Origin: Candidatus Acidiferrales bacterium
Lineage (GTDB): Bacteria > Acidobacteriota > Terriglobia > Acidiferrales > UBA7541
Direction of reading: 5' to 3'
NCBI GenBank assembly: GCA_030037225.1
Contig: JASHRU010000171.1
Span: 1 to 38,202, forward strand
Length of the DNA: 38,202 bases
Part shown: positions 29,519-34,178 of the stretch, in pieces
Layout: every line of letters begins with the position of its first letter
Numbering within the stretch: position 1 is the first letter of the stretch
Program-made: the position numbers and the translations under genes
Notes under the pieces: generated by a model
Database searches by the model: none
The model's input: only the letters and a program-made list of their open reading frames with translations
What the model was told of the DNA's origin: nothing

Positions 29519-30979
29519 CTAGTGAAGAACGGTGCAGGCTTCTCTCTCCACGACTGGCACAACATACCGCGCGATTTCATCTCCCTCGGTGTTGCGCGGC
29601 TGCTCCGGAGCCGCCGGCCATCCCATCGCCCGCGTCAGCTCGTCGTAGGTCGCCCGGTTCGTTCCGTCCACCACCAGGCATTCGGCGCCGAGACAGCGCA
29701 GGAACACGCCGCCCTGCGGCGTTTGGAATTCGAAGTAATTCGGCCGCCGCAGCAACGACGTGCGGCTCTCGTAACGCATCTGGAGCGCCTGGCTGATTCC
29801 CCCGAACAATCTCGCCGCATCCTCATCATTGTCCACATCGATCCGCCACACGAGCAGCGAACGCGGCAGCTTCGTGCCCGGGGCCGGTTTTGCCTCGGCA
29901 TAAATTGCATATTCATCGCCGGTCCAGGCGGAGGCCAGTTCTTTCGCGCGCGCCGCCCCGCTGAACTCCTTCAGCCATTCGAGCACCAGGAATTCTCCTC
30001 CCACGCTGGCTTCGAGCTTTTTCCACTGCGGGGCGGCGCTGGCCGGCAGCTCCGGCGCGGTCACCTTCACCGGCTTCACATCGCGGAAGTAGAGGTCGGG
30101 ATGCAGGATCTGTTGCGTTGAAGCCGGCGGGTGCTCGAACACGCGGTTAAACCCTGGCCACCCCTCGTAACGGCGCAGTAGGGCCTGAGTGAACACCGCT
30201 CCCGAGAGATACGGAAAGAGCAGTGTGTCCCGGACAAACCGCGGCGCCGCGTCGAACTTCTGAGCCTTCTCTCCCCCCGTCATCGTGTCCGGGTCCAGCA
30301 ATCCCTCCAGGTCCGGCGATTCCCTCACGCTCGCGCCCTTGTCCCGCAGGGTCCAGTCCAGCATGGCAGCGAATGCGGAGCCTTCCAGCACCGCGTGGCG
30401 CGCGAACTCCGCGTCGTCGTTGGGCTTCGCCGCGTCTGCCCATTTTTCAATGGAAAAATGCTCGTCCTGCAGTGCGTGCGTCAGCTCGTGCGCCATCACC
30501 TCGCGTTGGTCCGCCGGCTCGATCCAGTCCGCAATGTAGAATTCCCGCGTATCCGGGTCGTAGAGACCCGCGATCTGCTCGGTCAGCAAATCCAGCAAGA
30601 ACGGCTCCCAATCCAGGCTTTCCGGAATCAACCCGAGCTTCTTTCCCATCAGCTCGTCCGCCAGCCGTTCCTGTTTCTCTTTTTCCTTCTCGAAGTCCTT
30701 CAGCACGTACTGGCGGATTTCCTCACGCGAGCGGATGCTCTTTTTCAGCTCCCCCTTCTGCGGCAGCTGCAGGATCTCGCTCATCTGCGCCAGCACCTCG
30801 TCCGCCGCCTTCAGGAAATCCGCGTGCGACTGCGCGGGAAGAGGTGGCACGACGAGCTGCTGGGCCTTGGTGTCAGCGTGTTCCTGGGCTCTGACCTCTG
30901 GCCATGCCATGCACACGGCCACAAGCGCTGCCCCGCCCAGAGCCGCCAACAGCTTCCCAATCCTCCGCTTCCTCGTCAT
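29519..30979 (-). CDS. Exported HExxH metalloprotease-like protein
   Basis: This 486-residue protein has a basic signal peptide (MTRKRRIGKLLAALGGAALV, 1-31), a coiled Lys/Glu-rich helix (about 75-113), and a zinc site of the gluzincin type. The site is MAHELTHALQDEHF with His164, Glu165 and His168, followed by HAVLEGSAFAAM with Glu199 as a likely third ligand. The preceding AGLYDPDTREFYIAD beta segment is like that of minigluzincin-type peptidases. The C-terminal half (about 240-486) has no recognised motif. GGAG five bases before ATG 30979 supports this start over the longer frame to 31018. I cannot assign a family name with confidence. It probably acts in the periplasm or outside the cell. 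Confidence 0.82.
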   Translation of the reverse strand: MTRKRRIGKLLAALGGAALVAVCMAWPEVRAQEHADTKAQQLVVPPLPAQSHADFLKAADEVLAQMSEILQLPQKGELKKSIRSREEIRQYVLKDFEKEKEKQERLADELMGKKLGLIPESLDWEPFLLDLLTEQIAGLYDPDTREFYIADWIEPADQREVMAHELTHALQDEHFSIEKWADAAKPNDDAEFARHAVLEGSAFAAMLDWTLRDKGASVRESPDLEGLLDPDTMTGGEKAQKFDAAPRFVRDTLLFPYLSGAVFTQALLRRYEGWPGFNRVFEHPPASTQQILHPDLYFRDVKPVKVTAPELPASAAPQWKKLEASVGGEFLVLEWLKEFSGAARAKELASAWTGDEYAIYAEAKPAPGTKLPRSLLVWRIDVDNDEDAARLFGGISQALQMRYESRTSLLRRPNYFEFQTPQGGVFLRCLGAECLVVDGTNRATYDELTRAMGWPAAPEQPRNTEGDEIARYVVPVVEREACTVLH

Positions 30980-31094
30980 CGCTTCTCCCGAACCCTTACC
31001 ATTAGACGCACGCCACAACCGAAAGGAGGCACTGGCAGTTGCGCTCGGCAGAGGGTCCGCACCCTCGCTTCAACTCCTGCTCTGTGGAAGACTC

Positions 31095-31133
31095 AGTTCT
31101 GATAATGGAACATTGTGTACGATTTGGTATAGT
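31095..31133 (+). promoter_or_regulatory. Promoter and operator of the XRE/S24-like regulator
   Basis: An extended -10 TGGTATAGT (31125-31133) is present. Seventeen bases upstream, the expected -35 position is covered by an imperfect dyad, AGTTCT-GATAAT-GGAACATT (31095-31114). The same arrangement (GTTC-N8-GAAC core, GAT start of the spacer, TGGAACATT right arm) occurs at 32344-32363. The layout fits repressor binding over the -35 and autoregulation. Confidence 0.55.
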
Positions 31134-31168
31134 CTCATTCCTATTCCGGGCTTTGAACTGAGGTCACG

Positions 31169-31909
31169 ATGCAAGCCGGCACCCGCCTTCGGCAGGCTCG
31201 AGAACGACTTGGTCTTACGTTTCGCGACGTCGAACAGTCCAGCCACGAGCTGGCCGCGCGGCTCGGGCGTCCCGAATACATCATCCACATCAGCCGCCTT
31301 GCGGACATTGAGAATCATGGGATTGTGCCCAATCTCCACCGCCTGTTCGCCCTCTGCACCATCTATCATCTCGATCTGGGCGAAGCTCTCACCTGGTTCG
31401 GCCTGCCCTTGGAGGAAATGTACCGCGATGGCGCCCACTTTCCTGGCCTCCGGACTCATCCCGCGGCCCAGCCCATAAGCGTTCGGATCCCGATCCGGCT
31501 CGATCCGGGTTTCGATCCGCGTTGGACGGATGATTTCACCCGCCGCGTCGAGTCTTGGGGATATCTCGAACCGGGGCTCTTCAACGGGAAACGCCGGTAT
31601 TGCCTCGCTTATATCGGCCTCGAGGACCACACGATGGACCCACTGATCCGTCCGGGAAGCCTCGTGCTCGTGGATCCCGATCGCGACCAGGTGCTCAGCT
31701 CCGGATGGAATAACGAGTACGATCGCCCCATCTATTTTGTGGATACGCGCTCCAGCTATTTCTGTTCCTGGTGCCAGCTTGAGGACGGCCATCTGATTCT
31801 TCAGTCCCATCCCCTCTCCCCCGCCCGTCCGCGTGTTCTCCGCTATCCGGGAGAGGCGGAGATCATCGGGCAGGTTGTCGGCCTGACGATGCGTCTCGAT
31901 CCCGCCTAG
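31169..31909 (+). CDS. XRE-type transcriptional regulator with LexA/S24-like C-terminal domain
   Basis: This 246-residue protein has an N-terminal helix-turn-helix (about 4-75): TRLRQARERLGLTFRDVEQ, then SRLADIENHGIVPNLHRLFALCTIY. A linker follows, then a C-terminal S24-like domain (about 145-245). The region that would hold the peptidase serine reads LEDHTMDPLIRPGSLVLVD, with Thr155 where LexA/CI have Ser. The lysine strand is RSSYFCSWCQLE with no Lys, so self-cleavage looks lost and the domain is probably a dimer or ligand sensor. The 3' end overlaps the convergent hypothetical gene by 47 bases. The dyad over its promoter and its second copy at 32344-32374 suggest it controls both itself and the divergent pair next door. 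Confidence 0.87.
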   Translation: MQAGTRLRQARERLGLTFRDVEQSSHELAARLGRPEYIIHISRLADIENHGIVPNLHRLFALCTIYHLDLGEALTWFGLPLEEMYRDGAHFPGLRTHPAAQPISVRIPIRLDPGFDPRWTDDFTRRVESWGYLEPGLFNGKRRYCLAYIGLEDHTMDPLIRPGSLVLVDPDRDQVLSSGWNNEYDRPIYFVDTRSSYFCSWCQLEDGHLILQSHPLSPARPRVLRYPGEAEIIGQVVGLTMRLDPA

Positions 31910-32336
31910 CGCCCTCCTCCAGCGCTACATCCAACACCGCTCCCACGTTGGCCAGAAACACTTCCCGGAGGTATTCCGGAGAGTCGGAGGGTATCAGCAG
32001 ACGGTAAAACTCTGTCTCACGCCATCGCTGGAGCTTCCCCCGGAATTCCCCTTCCAAGCTCTCCAGGCAAGCCCGCAGGTCCCACTCCTGCTGCTCCAGC
32101 GACATCTCCAGCACCCGTAGAAACAGCTCCTGATGGCAATACCCCAATGCCTGTTGCACCGCCTCCCGTGAATATCGGGCCACGAGTCCTTCATGCACGT
32201 ATTCGCCGGTGGAAATGTCCCGCAGAGAGGATAGGTACAACAGCTTCCCAAATTCCGTGGGGATGGCCGCGAGCGTCCGCGCGGTGATGTCCTCCACGAC
32301 TTGCCGCGTTTGTTGGTAACTCTCGAAAGACTCCAC
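31863..32336 (-). CDS. Hypothetical protein, convergent with the regulator
   Basis: This 157-residue soluble, helical, Glu/Leu/Arg-rich protein begins MESFESYQQTRQVVEDITAR and continues IPTEFGKLLYLSSLRDISTGEYVHEGLVARYS. The conserved-looking core (about 25-125) ends in an EYLREVFLANVGAVLDVAL helix. I do not recognise a family. It starts at GTG 32336, only 8 bases from the operator cluster, with no clear ribosome binding site. Leaderless or operator-controlled translation is possible. Its end overlaps the last 47 bases of the regulator gene, so the two transcripts would run into each other. Normal protein composition and codon use support it as real. Confidence 0.75.
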   Translation of the reverse strand: MESFESYQQTRQVVEDITARTLAAIPTEFGKLLYLSSLRDISTGEYVHEGLVARYSREAVQQALGYCHQELFLRVLEMSLEQQEWDLRACLESLEGEFRGKLQRWRETEFYRLLIPSDSPEYLREVFLANVGAVLDVALEEGARRDRDASSGRQPAR

Positions 32337-32343
32337 AGTCGGC

Positions 32344-32374
32344 TGTTCCGATTCTGGAACATTTCGAATGTTCC
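32344..32374. promoter_or_regulatory. Divergent operator cluster (three GTTCC/GGAAC half-sites)
   Basis: Half-sites TGTTCC (32344-32349), GGAACA (32356-32361) and TGTTCC (32369-32374) alternate in orientation. The last two form a perfect 8+8 palindrome GGAACATT-TCG-AATGTTCC (32356-32374). The first two repeat the spacing of the operator at 31095-31114 before the XRE gene. The cluster lies between the divergent genes at 32336 (minus) and 32425 (plus) and could control both. Confidence 0.65.
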
Positions 32375-32424
32375 TGAAGTGACCGTCCTCCTACCCCCGA
32401 TTCTCTACGGCGAGGAGGTCTTCC

Positions 32425-32667
32425 ATGAAAAAGACCATCAGTCTCATTGCATTCTCTGTCGCCGCGCTGCTGCTCTTCGGCTGGATGCTAGCAACCCCGT
32501 TGCTCGAAATCAATCTGGCGCAGTCAGCCCCGGCCGTCGCCGATGGCACTCCGCCGCAACCACCGCCTCCCTACTTGCTGGCCGACGGGACGCCGCCACA
32601 GCCCCCGCCGCCCTACCTTCTCGCCGATGGCACTCCGCCACAGCCGCCTCCGCCCTATAACGTTTGA
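32425..32667 (+). CDS. Small secreted peptide precursor with three ADGTPPQPPPPY repeats
   Basis: This 80-residue product starts at ATG 32425 behind a very strong GAGGAGG site. Residues 1-33 are a signal peptide or single membrane anchor (KKTISLIAFSVAALLLFGWM...). The rest is three tandem 14-residue units at 39-52, 53-66 and 67-80: ADGTPPQPPPPY followed by LL, LL and NV. The DNA units (32539-32580, 32581-32622, 32623-32664) differ by many synonymous changes yet encode identical peptides apart from the last two residues, so the sequence appears selected. The design resembles multi-copy peptide precursors cut between units, but a Pro-rich spacer or wall-binding role is equally possible. No peptidase or transporter gene is adjacent. 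Confidence 0.82.
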   Translation: MKKTISLIAFSVAALLLFGWMLATPLLEINLAQSAPAVADGTPPQPPPPYLLADGTPPQPPPPYLLADGTPPQPPPPYNV

Positions 32668-32868: not shown

Positions 32869-33642
32869 ATGGATTTACAGAATCTCAGCGGAGTCGTGGC
32901 AGCGGCGCTGGGCCCGCTGGAACTGGCCGTGTGCGCGCTGGCGTTGCGTCGCCGGCTCTGGCGGATCCTGCCTTACTTCGTTGCTTACCTCATCGTCCTG
33001 ATAACGGTCGACATCGGCCGCTGGGCCGTCCTACTGGCGGCCGGTGCCAGTTCTCGCGCCTACAGTTGGGTCTACTGGATGACACAGCCCGTGCACATAC
33101 TGGCTCGGGCGGCCGCACTGGCGGATATCTGCCGCGCCACGCTGGGTTCGTACACAGGGGTATGGCGGCTCGCTCGCCCGCTGCTGCTGGCGGCTGCAAC
33201 GCTCTTGCTGGCCGTCGCCGCCATCCGCACGAGCGGAACGGGCTGGCTCGTCTCCTATCTTATATTTCTGGAGCGGGAGCTGGAATTTGCGGTGGTGATC
33301 TCGCTCCTGCTGCTGCTTTTGTTCACCAGATATTACGGCTTGGTCCTGGAACGGCCTCTGGATGGAATTGCGCTTGGGGCTGGATTTTACTCTTCTTTTG
33401 TAATAATAAAAGATACTATAATCCTCGTGGTAGGTAATCAGCCGTGGGCGTGGTATAGTCTTTCGCACAGTTTGGCGTTTGCCATCACGGCGGGGATTTG
33501 GATATATGCCTTGCGGGCGCCATTGCCTGAACGTGTCCAGCCGAATATGAGCTCGATACGCGCTTACGAAGACGACACGCGAGCCGTCAGCGAGCGGATG
33601 CGCGAACTCAACGACCGATTACTGAAGCTGATGAAGGGATGA
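32869..33642 (+). CDS. Multi-pass membrane protein of unknown function
   Basis: This 257-residue protein has six or seven hydrophobic segments. They begin near residues 7, 33, 62, 103, 136 and 164, with a last one (SLSHSLAFAITAGIWIYAL) around 197-215, then a charged cytoplasmic-looking C-terminal tail (RAYEDDTRAVSERMRELNDRLLKLMKG) that could form a coiled coil. I do not recognise a family; a 7TM sensor-like layout is possible. A TATTAT at 32853-32858 lies so close to ATG 32869 that transcription could begin at or next to the start codon (leaderless). The stop overlaps the next gene by 4 bases (ATGA), so both are translationally coupled. Confidence 0.78.
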   Translation: MDLQNLSGVVAAALGPLELAVCALALRRRLWRILPYFVAYLIVLITVDIGRWAVLLAAGASSRAYSWVYWMTQPVHILARAAALADICRATLGSYTGVWRLARPLLLAAATLLLAVAAIRTSGTGWLVSYLIFLERELEFAVVISLLLLLLFTRYYGLVLERPLDGIALGAGFYSSFVIIKDTIILVVGNQPWAWYSLSHSLAFAITAGIWIYALRAPLPERVQPNMSSIRAYEDDTRAVSERMRELNDRLLKLMKG

Positions 33643-34178
33643 TAGAACAAGTTTTCTACATAGCGGCAGCACTGCTTGTTGCCGGGGCCGTTGTACTGCT
33701 GCTCCGCCGCCCCCGCAGGGGCTTCGCCACGGGTACGGGGCGCCCTCCCGCTTCCTCTGAGTTTTTCCCCGTCCATTGCCGCTATTTTCCACAGGTCCGT
33801 CACGCGCTTACTGCAGAAGACGCTCCCTACCTGGCCTCCCACGCATCGCCGGAGGTGTACCGCCGCTGGCGGAAGAGCACGCGCAAGGCGGGCAGGCTGT
33901 ATTTGGCCGCCTTGCGCGAAGATTTCTCGCGTCTCAACCGCCTCGCGCGGGTGATTTCACTTCATTCTCCGCGGGTGCGCTTCCAGCAAGAACTCGAACT
34001 CCTCCGCATGAACTTCTATTTTCAGTTCCTCTACGGGGGTGTAGTGCTGCGCTTCCTACTGGGCCGTCCTGCCGGTGACCGCCTGGAACAGATGGCCTCA
34101 TTCATTGTGAGCGTTGGAGGCCGCCTCGAACAGGCTGCCCTCGCTCCCCACATCTCTGCCGGCGCCGTTACTCCGTAA
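33639..34178 (+). CDS. Hypothetical membrane-anchored protein
   Basis: This 179-residue protein has one N-terminal membrane helix (IEQVFYIAAALLVAGAVVLLL, 2-22) and then a basic, helical domain with an HCRYFPQVRHALTAEDAPYLASHASPEVYRRWRKSTRKAGRLYLAALREDFSRL region (about 46-99). A further hydrophobic stretch (MNFYFQFLYGGVVLRFLLG) lies around 124-142. No known family is apparent. It is coupled to the preceding membrane gene by an ATGA overlap. Its last 11 bases overlap the end of the convergent histidine kinase gene. Together, the two membrane genes form a small operon downstream of the repeat-peptide gene. Confidence 0.75.
   Translation: MIEQVFYIAAALLVAGAVVLLLRRPRRGFATGTGRPPASSEFFPVHCRYFPQVRHALTAEDAPYLASHASPEVYRRWRKSTRKAGRLYLAALREDFSRLNRLARVISLHSPRVRFQQELELLRMNFYFQFLYGGVVLRFLLGRPAGDRLEQMASFIVSVGGRLEQAALAPHISAGAVTP

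Follow-up and report, generated by a model that had tools for sequence, protein, structure and literature searches.

The DNA analyzed here (the window, 38,202 nucleotides) carries a regulator gene (REG), a gene convergent with it (CONV) and a gene for a small repeat-containing peptide, with two genes for predicted membrane proteins (TM7 and G6) downstream and a divergent peptidase gene (PEP) on the other side. A sequence-only reading had proposed that a regulator, a gene overlapping the regulator's 3' end and a repeat peptide lie together here with two copies of the same dyad, GTTC-N8-GAAC, and all of these are found in the window as described:

29519-31018, minus strand: PEP, a predicted exported metallopeptidase with an HExxH motif, its gene facing away from REG on the other side of O1
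31096-31111: O1 (GTTCTGATAATGGAAC), candidate operator upstream of REG
31169-31909, plus strand: REG, 246 amino acids, an XRE-type HTH and a degenerate S24/LexA-like C-terminal domain
31863-32336, minus strand: CONV, 157 amino acids, GTG start, all-helical, convergent with REG
32345-32360: O2 (GTTCCGATTCTGGAAC), candidate operator in the region from which CONV and the peptide gene diverge; the start of CONV is 8 bp away
32425-32667, plus strand: repeat-peptide precursor, 80 amino acids, a hydrophobic N-terminus (predicted signal) and then DGTPPQPPPPY three times
32542-32574, 32584-32616 and 32626-32658, plus strand: the three DGTPPQPPPPY units, with a 42-nt period
32869-33642, plus strand: TM7, 257 amino acids, a predicted seven-transmembrane protein with a C-terminal amphipathic helix
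33639-34178, plus strand: G6, 179 amino acids, a predicted membrane-anchored helical protein

The CONV ORF overlaps the 3' end of REG by 47 bp, and the start of G6 overlaps the stop of TM7. Neither match of PEP, to DUF6782 (E=9e-5) or to Hvo_1808 (E=1e-25), reaches the cut-off. PEP is kept beside REG in Acidiferrales-type loci only, and is a possible co-regulated gene or processing enzyme.

Of 61 related genomes, 36 contain relatives of REG, and 80 named loci were drawn from a species-representative collection. These carry Acidobacteriota names except for a few (L078, L086 and L106), which are taken as misnamed bins. We call Acidiferrales-type those loci whose REG identity is about 50% or more (n=27, with the window counted among them). 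The counts below come from kin genomes and not from independent trials, and therefore show conservation but do not yield P values; phylum-wide tallies are lower bounds, the best six to eight candidates per genome having been scored.

REG, CONV, a short peptide with a signal-like N-terminus, TM7 and G6 occur in constant order in 27 of 27 Acidiferrales-type loci. Among more distant loci (n=54), 53 contain CONV, and TM7 is downstream in 39 and upstream in 4; five of the distant loci that lack TM7 end within 1.3 kb. CONV is tied to REG, which adjoins 45 of the 47 CONV matches in the 61 genomes. Flanking genes vary by lineage: Acidiferrales-type loci have PEP with a hybrid histidine kinase, and Bryobacterales have ubiX. 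Simple shared synteny is therefore disfavored. The search of other genomes for the three genes with their operator pair, proposed by the sequence-only reading, thus finds the set conserved, with an O2-type site in 27 of 27 loci and an O1-type site in 26 of 26. The three genes do stay together, but the unit that is kept runs past position 32667 and takes in TM7 and G6.

O1 and O2 are copies of the same dyad, one over the expected promoter of the regulator and the other in the divergent region between the other two genes, as had been noticed. The 38-kb window has four matches to the bare pattern GTTC-N8-GAAC, compared with 0.48 expected, so the pattern does not by itself single out O1 and O2. 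We scored the window with a weight matrix derived from the CONV-side sites in other genera, leaving out the window and the same-genus site. O1 and O2 rank as the top two sites in 38 kb, at 17.6 and 17.0 bits; the next site scores 11.5 bits, and the other two exact matches fall below O1 and O2. All 27 Acidiferrales-type loci have an exact GTTC-N8-GAAC at a distance of 7-29 bp from the start of CONV, and the matrix from CONV-side sites, applied to the region upstream of REG, finds a site 72-90 bp upstream in 26 of 26, where 0.3 are expected from shuffles. Matrix sites also occur in distant loci, upstream of REG in 43 of 54 and between CONV and the peptide in 32 of 52 (about 1.1 and 1.2 expected). 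Genome-wide, a relaxed operator pattern gives 28 listed matches versus 7 in a reversed control, counted regardless of their position relative to promoters, and we do not read a larger regulon into them.

A -10-like box, TATAGT, follows O1 at 31128-31133, and many Acidiferrales-type loci have a TATAAT-like box 14-16 nt after O1. Given this spacing, O1 covers the expected -35 region, a position that would fit repression but does not prove it. The REG-side dyad of Bryobacterales is further upstream, between REG and the divergent ubiX, so control may act in another direction in that group. At Bryobacterales loci such as L101, L103, L113 and L119, this dyad is close to the start of the divergent ubiX-like gene, and a wider regulon that takes in prenylated-FMN synthesis is possible. 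Another perfect palindrome, GAACATTTCGAATGTTC, stands at 32357-32373 in the window and overlaps O2 on its right half; it is also found in the same-genus locus L071 and is absent from other genera.

The N-terminus of REG matches Pfam HTH_31 at 28.7 bits (cut-off 27), and 22 of 33 members of the REG family match at E<=0.01. Pfam S24 gives only 11.5 bits with REG (E=0.25; cut-off 23.3) and matches no family member at E<=0.01. Remote profile alignment (hhalign) of the C-terminal half with LexA S24 domains scores 26.6, where the maximum among column shuffles is 18.1, and REG residues 3-239 match phrog_4, a phage repressor family of PHROGs annotated as transcriptional repressor (E=5e-7). The Ser-Lys catalytic dyad is not conserved in REG: the Ser position is occupied by T, R, S, W, F or M, the Lys is lost, and a nearly invariant C-x-W-C (199-202) stands in place of the Lys region. 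Conventional self-cleavage is consequently not expected. The earlier description of the regulator as S24-like therefore applies only to a remote relative, suggested by profile alignment and phrog_4, and one that is catalytically degenerate and below the Pfam S24 cut-off.

CONV is modeled as an all-helical protein with high confidence (pLDDT 94) and has the invariant residues Y46, H48 and H68. A fold search with this model against the PDB returned no match. Families of Pfam, NCBIfam and PADLOC give no match to CONV, TM7 or G6, and searches of Pfam, NCBIfam, PADLOC and PHROGs with these three proteins and the peptide gave nothing beyond weak matches below the cut-off. Identity of CONV with the TscA antitoxin was considered and rejected, as the similarity is weak, with matches in 3 of 72 members and an E of 0.008 at best, and the genes are convergent and form no operon. 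From linkage alone, we would guess that CONV is a partner of REG.

The three perfect repeats reported in a small peptide with a hydrophobic N-terminus are borne out as three copies of DGTPPQPPPPY; signal peptides here and elsewhere were judged by hydropathy only. Pairs of units in the window differ at six or seven synonymous sites and at no non-synonymous site, so that the protein sequence is identical and the repeat does not reflect a recent DNA duplication. Units in 13 other loci likewise encode identical protein and average 2-9 synonymous differences. This combination of unchanged protein and diverged codons implies that selection maintains identical peptide units, and such peptide-level selection would support a processed, multi-copy product. 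The units are often preceded by Ala (A-DG or A-NG), although not universally, which suggests a common cut site. NCBIfam Phr_nterm matches the peptide at E=0.25, below the cut-off.

The mature peptide varies by genus among Acidiferrales-type loci, with examples including DGVRPTPPAPPK, DGGAPTPPLPPPSG, six copies of DGNGTPPPPFPN, DGWPLPPGPP and others. Six loci (L075, L077, L080, L083, L092 and L095) have a single copy, and repetition is therefore not essential. Distant loci encode short single-copy peptides, many with two cysteines (for example, ADGNPGPSCLPNQVCKP), and also repeats of other kinds, DGPLPDPNSPNPPY and DDLFPCPDGDCK among them.

The TM7 model consists of seven helices and a C-terminal helix (pLDDT 91). 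Foldseek comparison with the PDB gives nothing significant; the top match is the yeast pheromone receptor Ste2 (E=0.24), and rhodopsins align with a TM of about 0.5, also non-significant. The idea that TM7 is the sensor domain of the neighboring kinase was dropped, since the N-terminus of the kinase is not detectably related. A profile search with TM7 finds paralogs that coincide with a weak second set of peptide matches, and this coincidence of sites led us to reject the view that the extra matches are chance proline-rich sequences.

These paralogs include 24 loci that have enough upstream DNA and no detected REG or CONV. A small predicted-secreted ORF lies upstream of TM7 in 19 of the 24, within about 0.5 kb except at L057, and it is a tandem-repeat peptide in 16, three of which are found only if no Shine-Dalgarno-like site is required. 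Random windows have a secreted repeat ORF plus a Shine-Dalgarno-like site in 31 of 3000 cases. The genome that contains the window has a second peptide-TM7 module without REG or CONV (L051; G000:C325, 5996-6929, minus strand), whose peptide carries NSGAPVPPTPW three times, and peptides of other such loci include three copies of HGGAPIPPIPF, three of WGGAPLPPTPWK and five of GSAPAPMPPHATMALI. Modules related to L051 (L053, L054, L056 and L057) are upstream of a tilS-like gene. Two Acidobacteriaceae loci, L243 and L247, have four and three tandem whole peptide genes before TM7, with no internal repeats. Some distant TM7 homologs (L208, L210 and L235-L241) have no upstream peptide by the criteria used. 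Because peptide and TM7 occur without REG and CONV, we regard the peptide-TM7 pair as the core and REG-CONV as one way to regulate it. The trio first proposed as a system is thereby divided: REG and CONV would form one regulatory module, but the peptide is found elsewhere with TM7 alone, and that is the more general pair.

Between the two members of the genus, identity is 68% for TM7 and G6, compared with 89-95% for PEP, REG, CONV and the histidine kinase, and the dS values of TM7 and G6 are 1.8 and 1.2, versus 0.5-0.75 in neighboring genes. Positive selection on TM7 and G6 was rejected as a cause, since the rise in dN is accompanied by a rise in dS. The divergence (32869-34178 in the window) would fit replacement by a diverged allele.

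The best explanation of the window locus is that it is one member of an Acidobacteriota-wide family in which a small hypervariable exported peptide is combined with a dedicated TM7 protein and its partner G6. Our favored reading, to which we assign a probability of roughly one half, is that the secreted peptide signals through TM7 and G6. Genome comparison supports the gene set, the operator pair, selection at the peptide level and the pairing of peptide with TM7. We infer that REG autoregulates this secreted-peptide system, and export, cleavage, sensing, operator binding, the direction of control and the role of CONV are proposed on the same footing. The precursor would be exported by Sec and lose its signal peptide, and additional cleavage, often between Ala and DG or NG, would free identical peptides of about 11-14 residues. 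Outside the cytoplasmic membrane, the peptide could then act as a self-specific signal recognized by the cognate TM7 and G6. As a LexA/CI-like repressor that lacks the peptidase residues, REG would bind O1 and O2, repress its own promoter and control the divergent CONV and peptide-TM7-G6 transcripts, and CONV, nearly always beside REG, may modulate REG. Signaling agrees with a peptide sequence that varies by genus in a slot that is constant, but TM7 resembles no receptor significantly in fold or sequence, and the set has no constant signaling output domain.

A different role for the peptide, which we consider unlikely although it fits several features, is that of a narrow-spectrum antimicrobial, with TM7 and G6 providing immunity or export and REG acting as a production switch. 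A hypervariable secreted peptide that adjoins a dedicated pair of membrane proteins, the two cysteines in many of the small peptides and the amplification of peptide genes would all suit an antagonistic function. However, the repeat units, whose net charge averages -0.64, are neutral to acidic, unlike cationic proline-rich antimicrobials, and the conserved genes include no dedicated exporter and no modification gene: neither the modification enzyme nor the dedicated transporter that would mark a RiPP locus was detected among the conserved neighbors REG, CONV, TM7 and G6. PADLOC defense models also gave no match to six proteins of the locus at E<=0.01.

Somewhat less probable again is that the peptides are structural or metal- or thiol-active parts of the envelope that are handled by TM7 and G6, with REG, through its C-x-W-C, and CONV, through an invariant His, sensing redox state or metal. 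The near invariance of C-x-W-C, the two invariant His residues of CONV, the C-x-x-C or C...C of many non-repeat peptides and the Bryobacterales dyad between REG and the divergent ubiX are consistent with such a role, but Acidiferrales peptides at the same locus are mostly without cysteine, peptide sequences are widely varied for a fixed structural part, and peptide-TM7 pairs exist without REG. It is very improbable that the regulon is REG and CONV only, with peptide and TM7 as neighbors by descent and O2 serving CONV alone. In favor of this, CONV tracks REG (45/47), O2 is far nearer the CONV start than the peptide start and peptide-TM7 pairs without REG exist. Against it, distant families retain a peptide gene in the slot between CONV and TM7 even though the flanks differ (PEP and the kinase in some, ubiX in others), a pattern hard to account for by neutral linkage.

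If the signaling reading is correct, tandem pheromone copies would not be new as a principle. In Rap-Phr systems of Bacillota, Phr propeptides are tandemly duplicated, with up to eight identical mature-peptide copies per precursor (PMC11343458). The acidobacterial locus resembles Rap-Phr and RRNPPA systems in its small precursor (with Sec export predicted here), predicted short mature peptide, identical tandem copies and cognate partner gene. It differs in that the partner is a 7TM membrane protein, re-import is not indicated, the phylum is diderm and the units are proline-rich, with 11-14 residues and no detected sequence homology. A TPR receptor, by which Rap-Phr systems can be recognized, had no match in REG, CONV, TM7 or G6, and the parts of this locus are outside the Rap-Phr family. 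Kex2-processed repeat proteins are known in fungi (PMC7329392). Yeast alpha-factor and Ste2 likewise combine a repeat precursor with a 7TM partner, and Ste2 is the top, though non-significant, fold match of TM7, but the acidobacterial locus has no G protein and homology is not shown, so the likeness is an analogy only.

As in agr and Com systems, the locus is conserved and places the gene for a variable secreted peptide beside one for a polytopic membrane protein, but no AgrB-type processing protein, ABC peptide exporter or receptor kinase is fixed in the set; the hybrid kinase is a neighbor only in Acidiferrales-type loci. REG shares with LexA/CI-type repressors its domain layout, the phrog_4 match and a palindromic operator in autoregulatory position, but departs from them in its variable catalytic Ser, lost Lys and C-x-W-C. 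The sequence-only reading knew of no described system with this set, and our search of the open-access literature agrees, having found no description of the REG-CONV-peptide-TM7-G6 set and no peptide-signaling system described for Acidobacteria.

Acidobacteria are abundant in soil. If the peptides are signals, they would offer a handle on cell-cell communication in this group, with synthetic ligands readable from genomes and a membrane partner of an unannotated family. We propose, tentatively and with less confidence than signaling itself, a phylum-wide mode of diderm peptide communication in which hypervariable secreted peptides, repeated or amplified, are sensed by cognate 7TM proteins, with one branch under a non-proteolytic LexA-like repressor. 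This might be a bacterial counterpart of the repeat-precursor pheromone and its 7TM receptor, outside the described quorum-sensing families. Codon-diverged but protein-identical repeats, together with gene amplification, also make a clean system in which to ask why a peptide is multiplied within its precursor.

Paralogous REG-CONV pairs also occur within one genome, G034, which has six copies of REG. At L050, a paralogous REG-CONV pair is near another repeat peptide (DGGLPMPPPPKNAASFL), in a different orientation.
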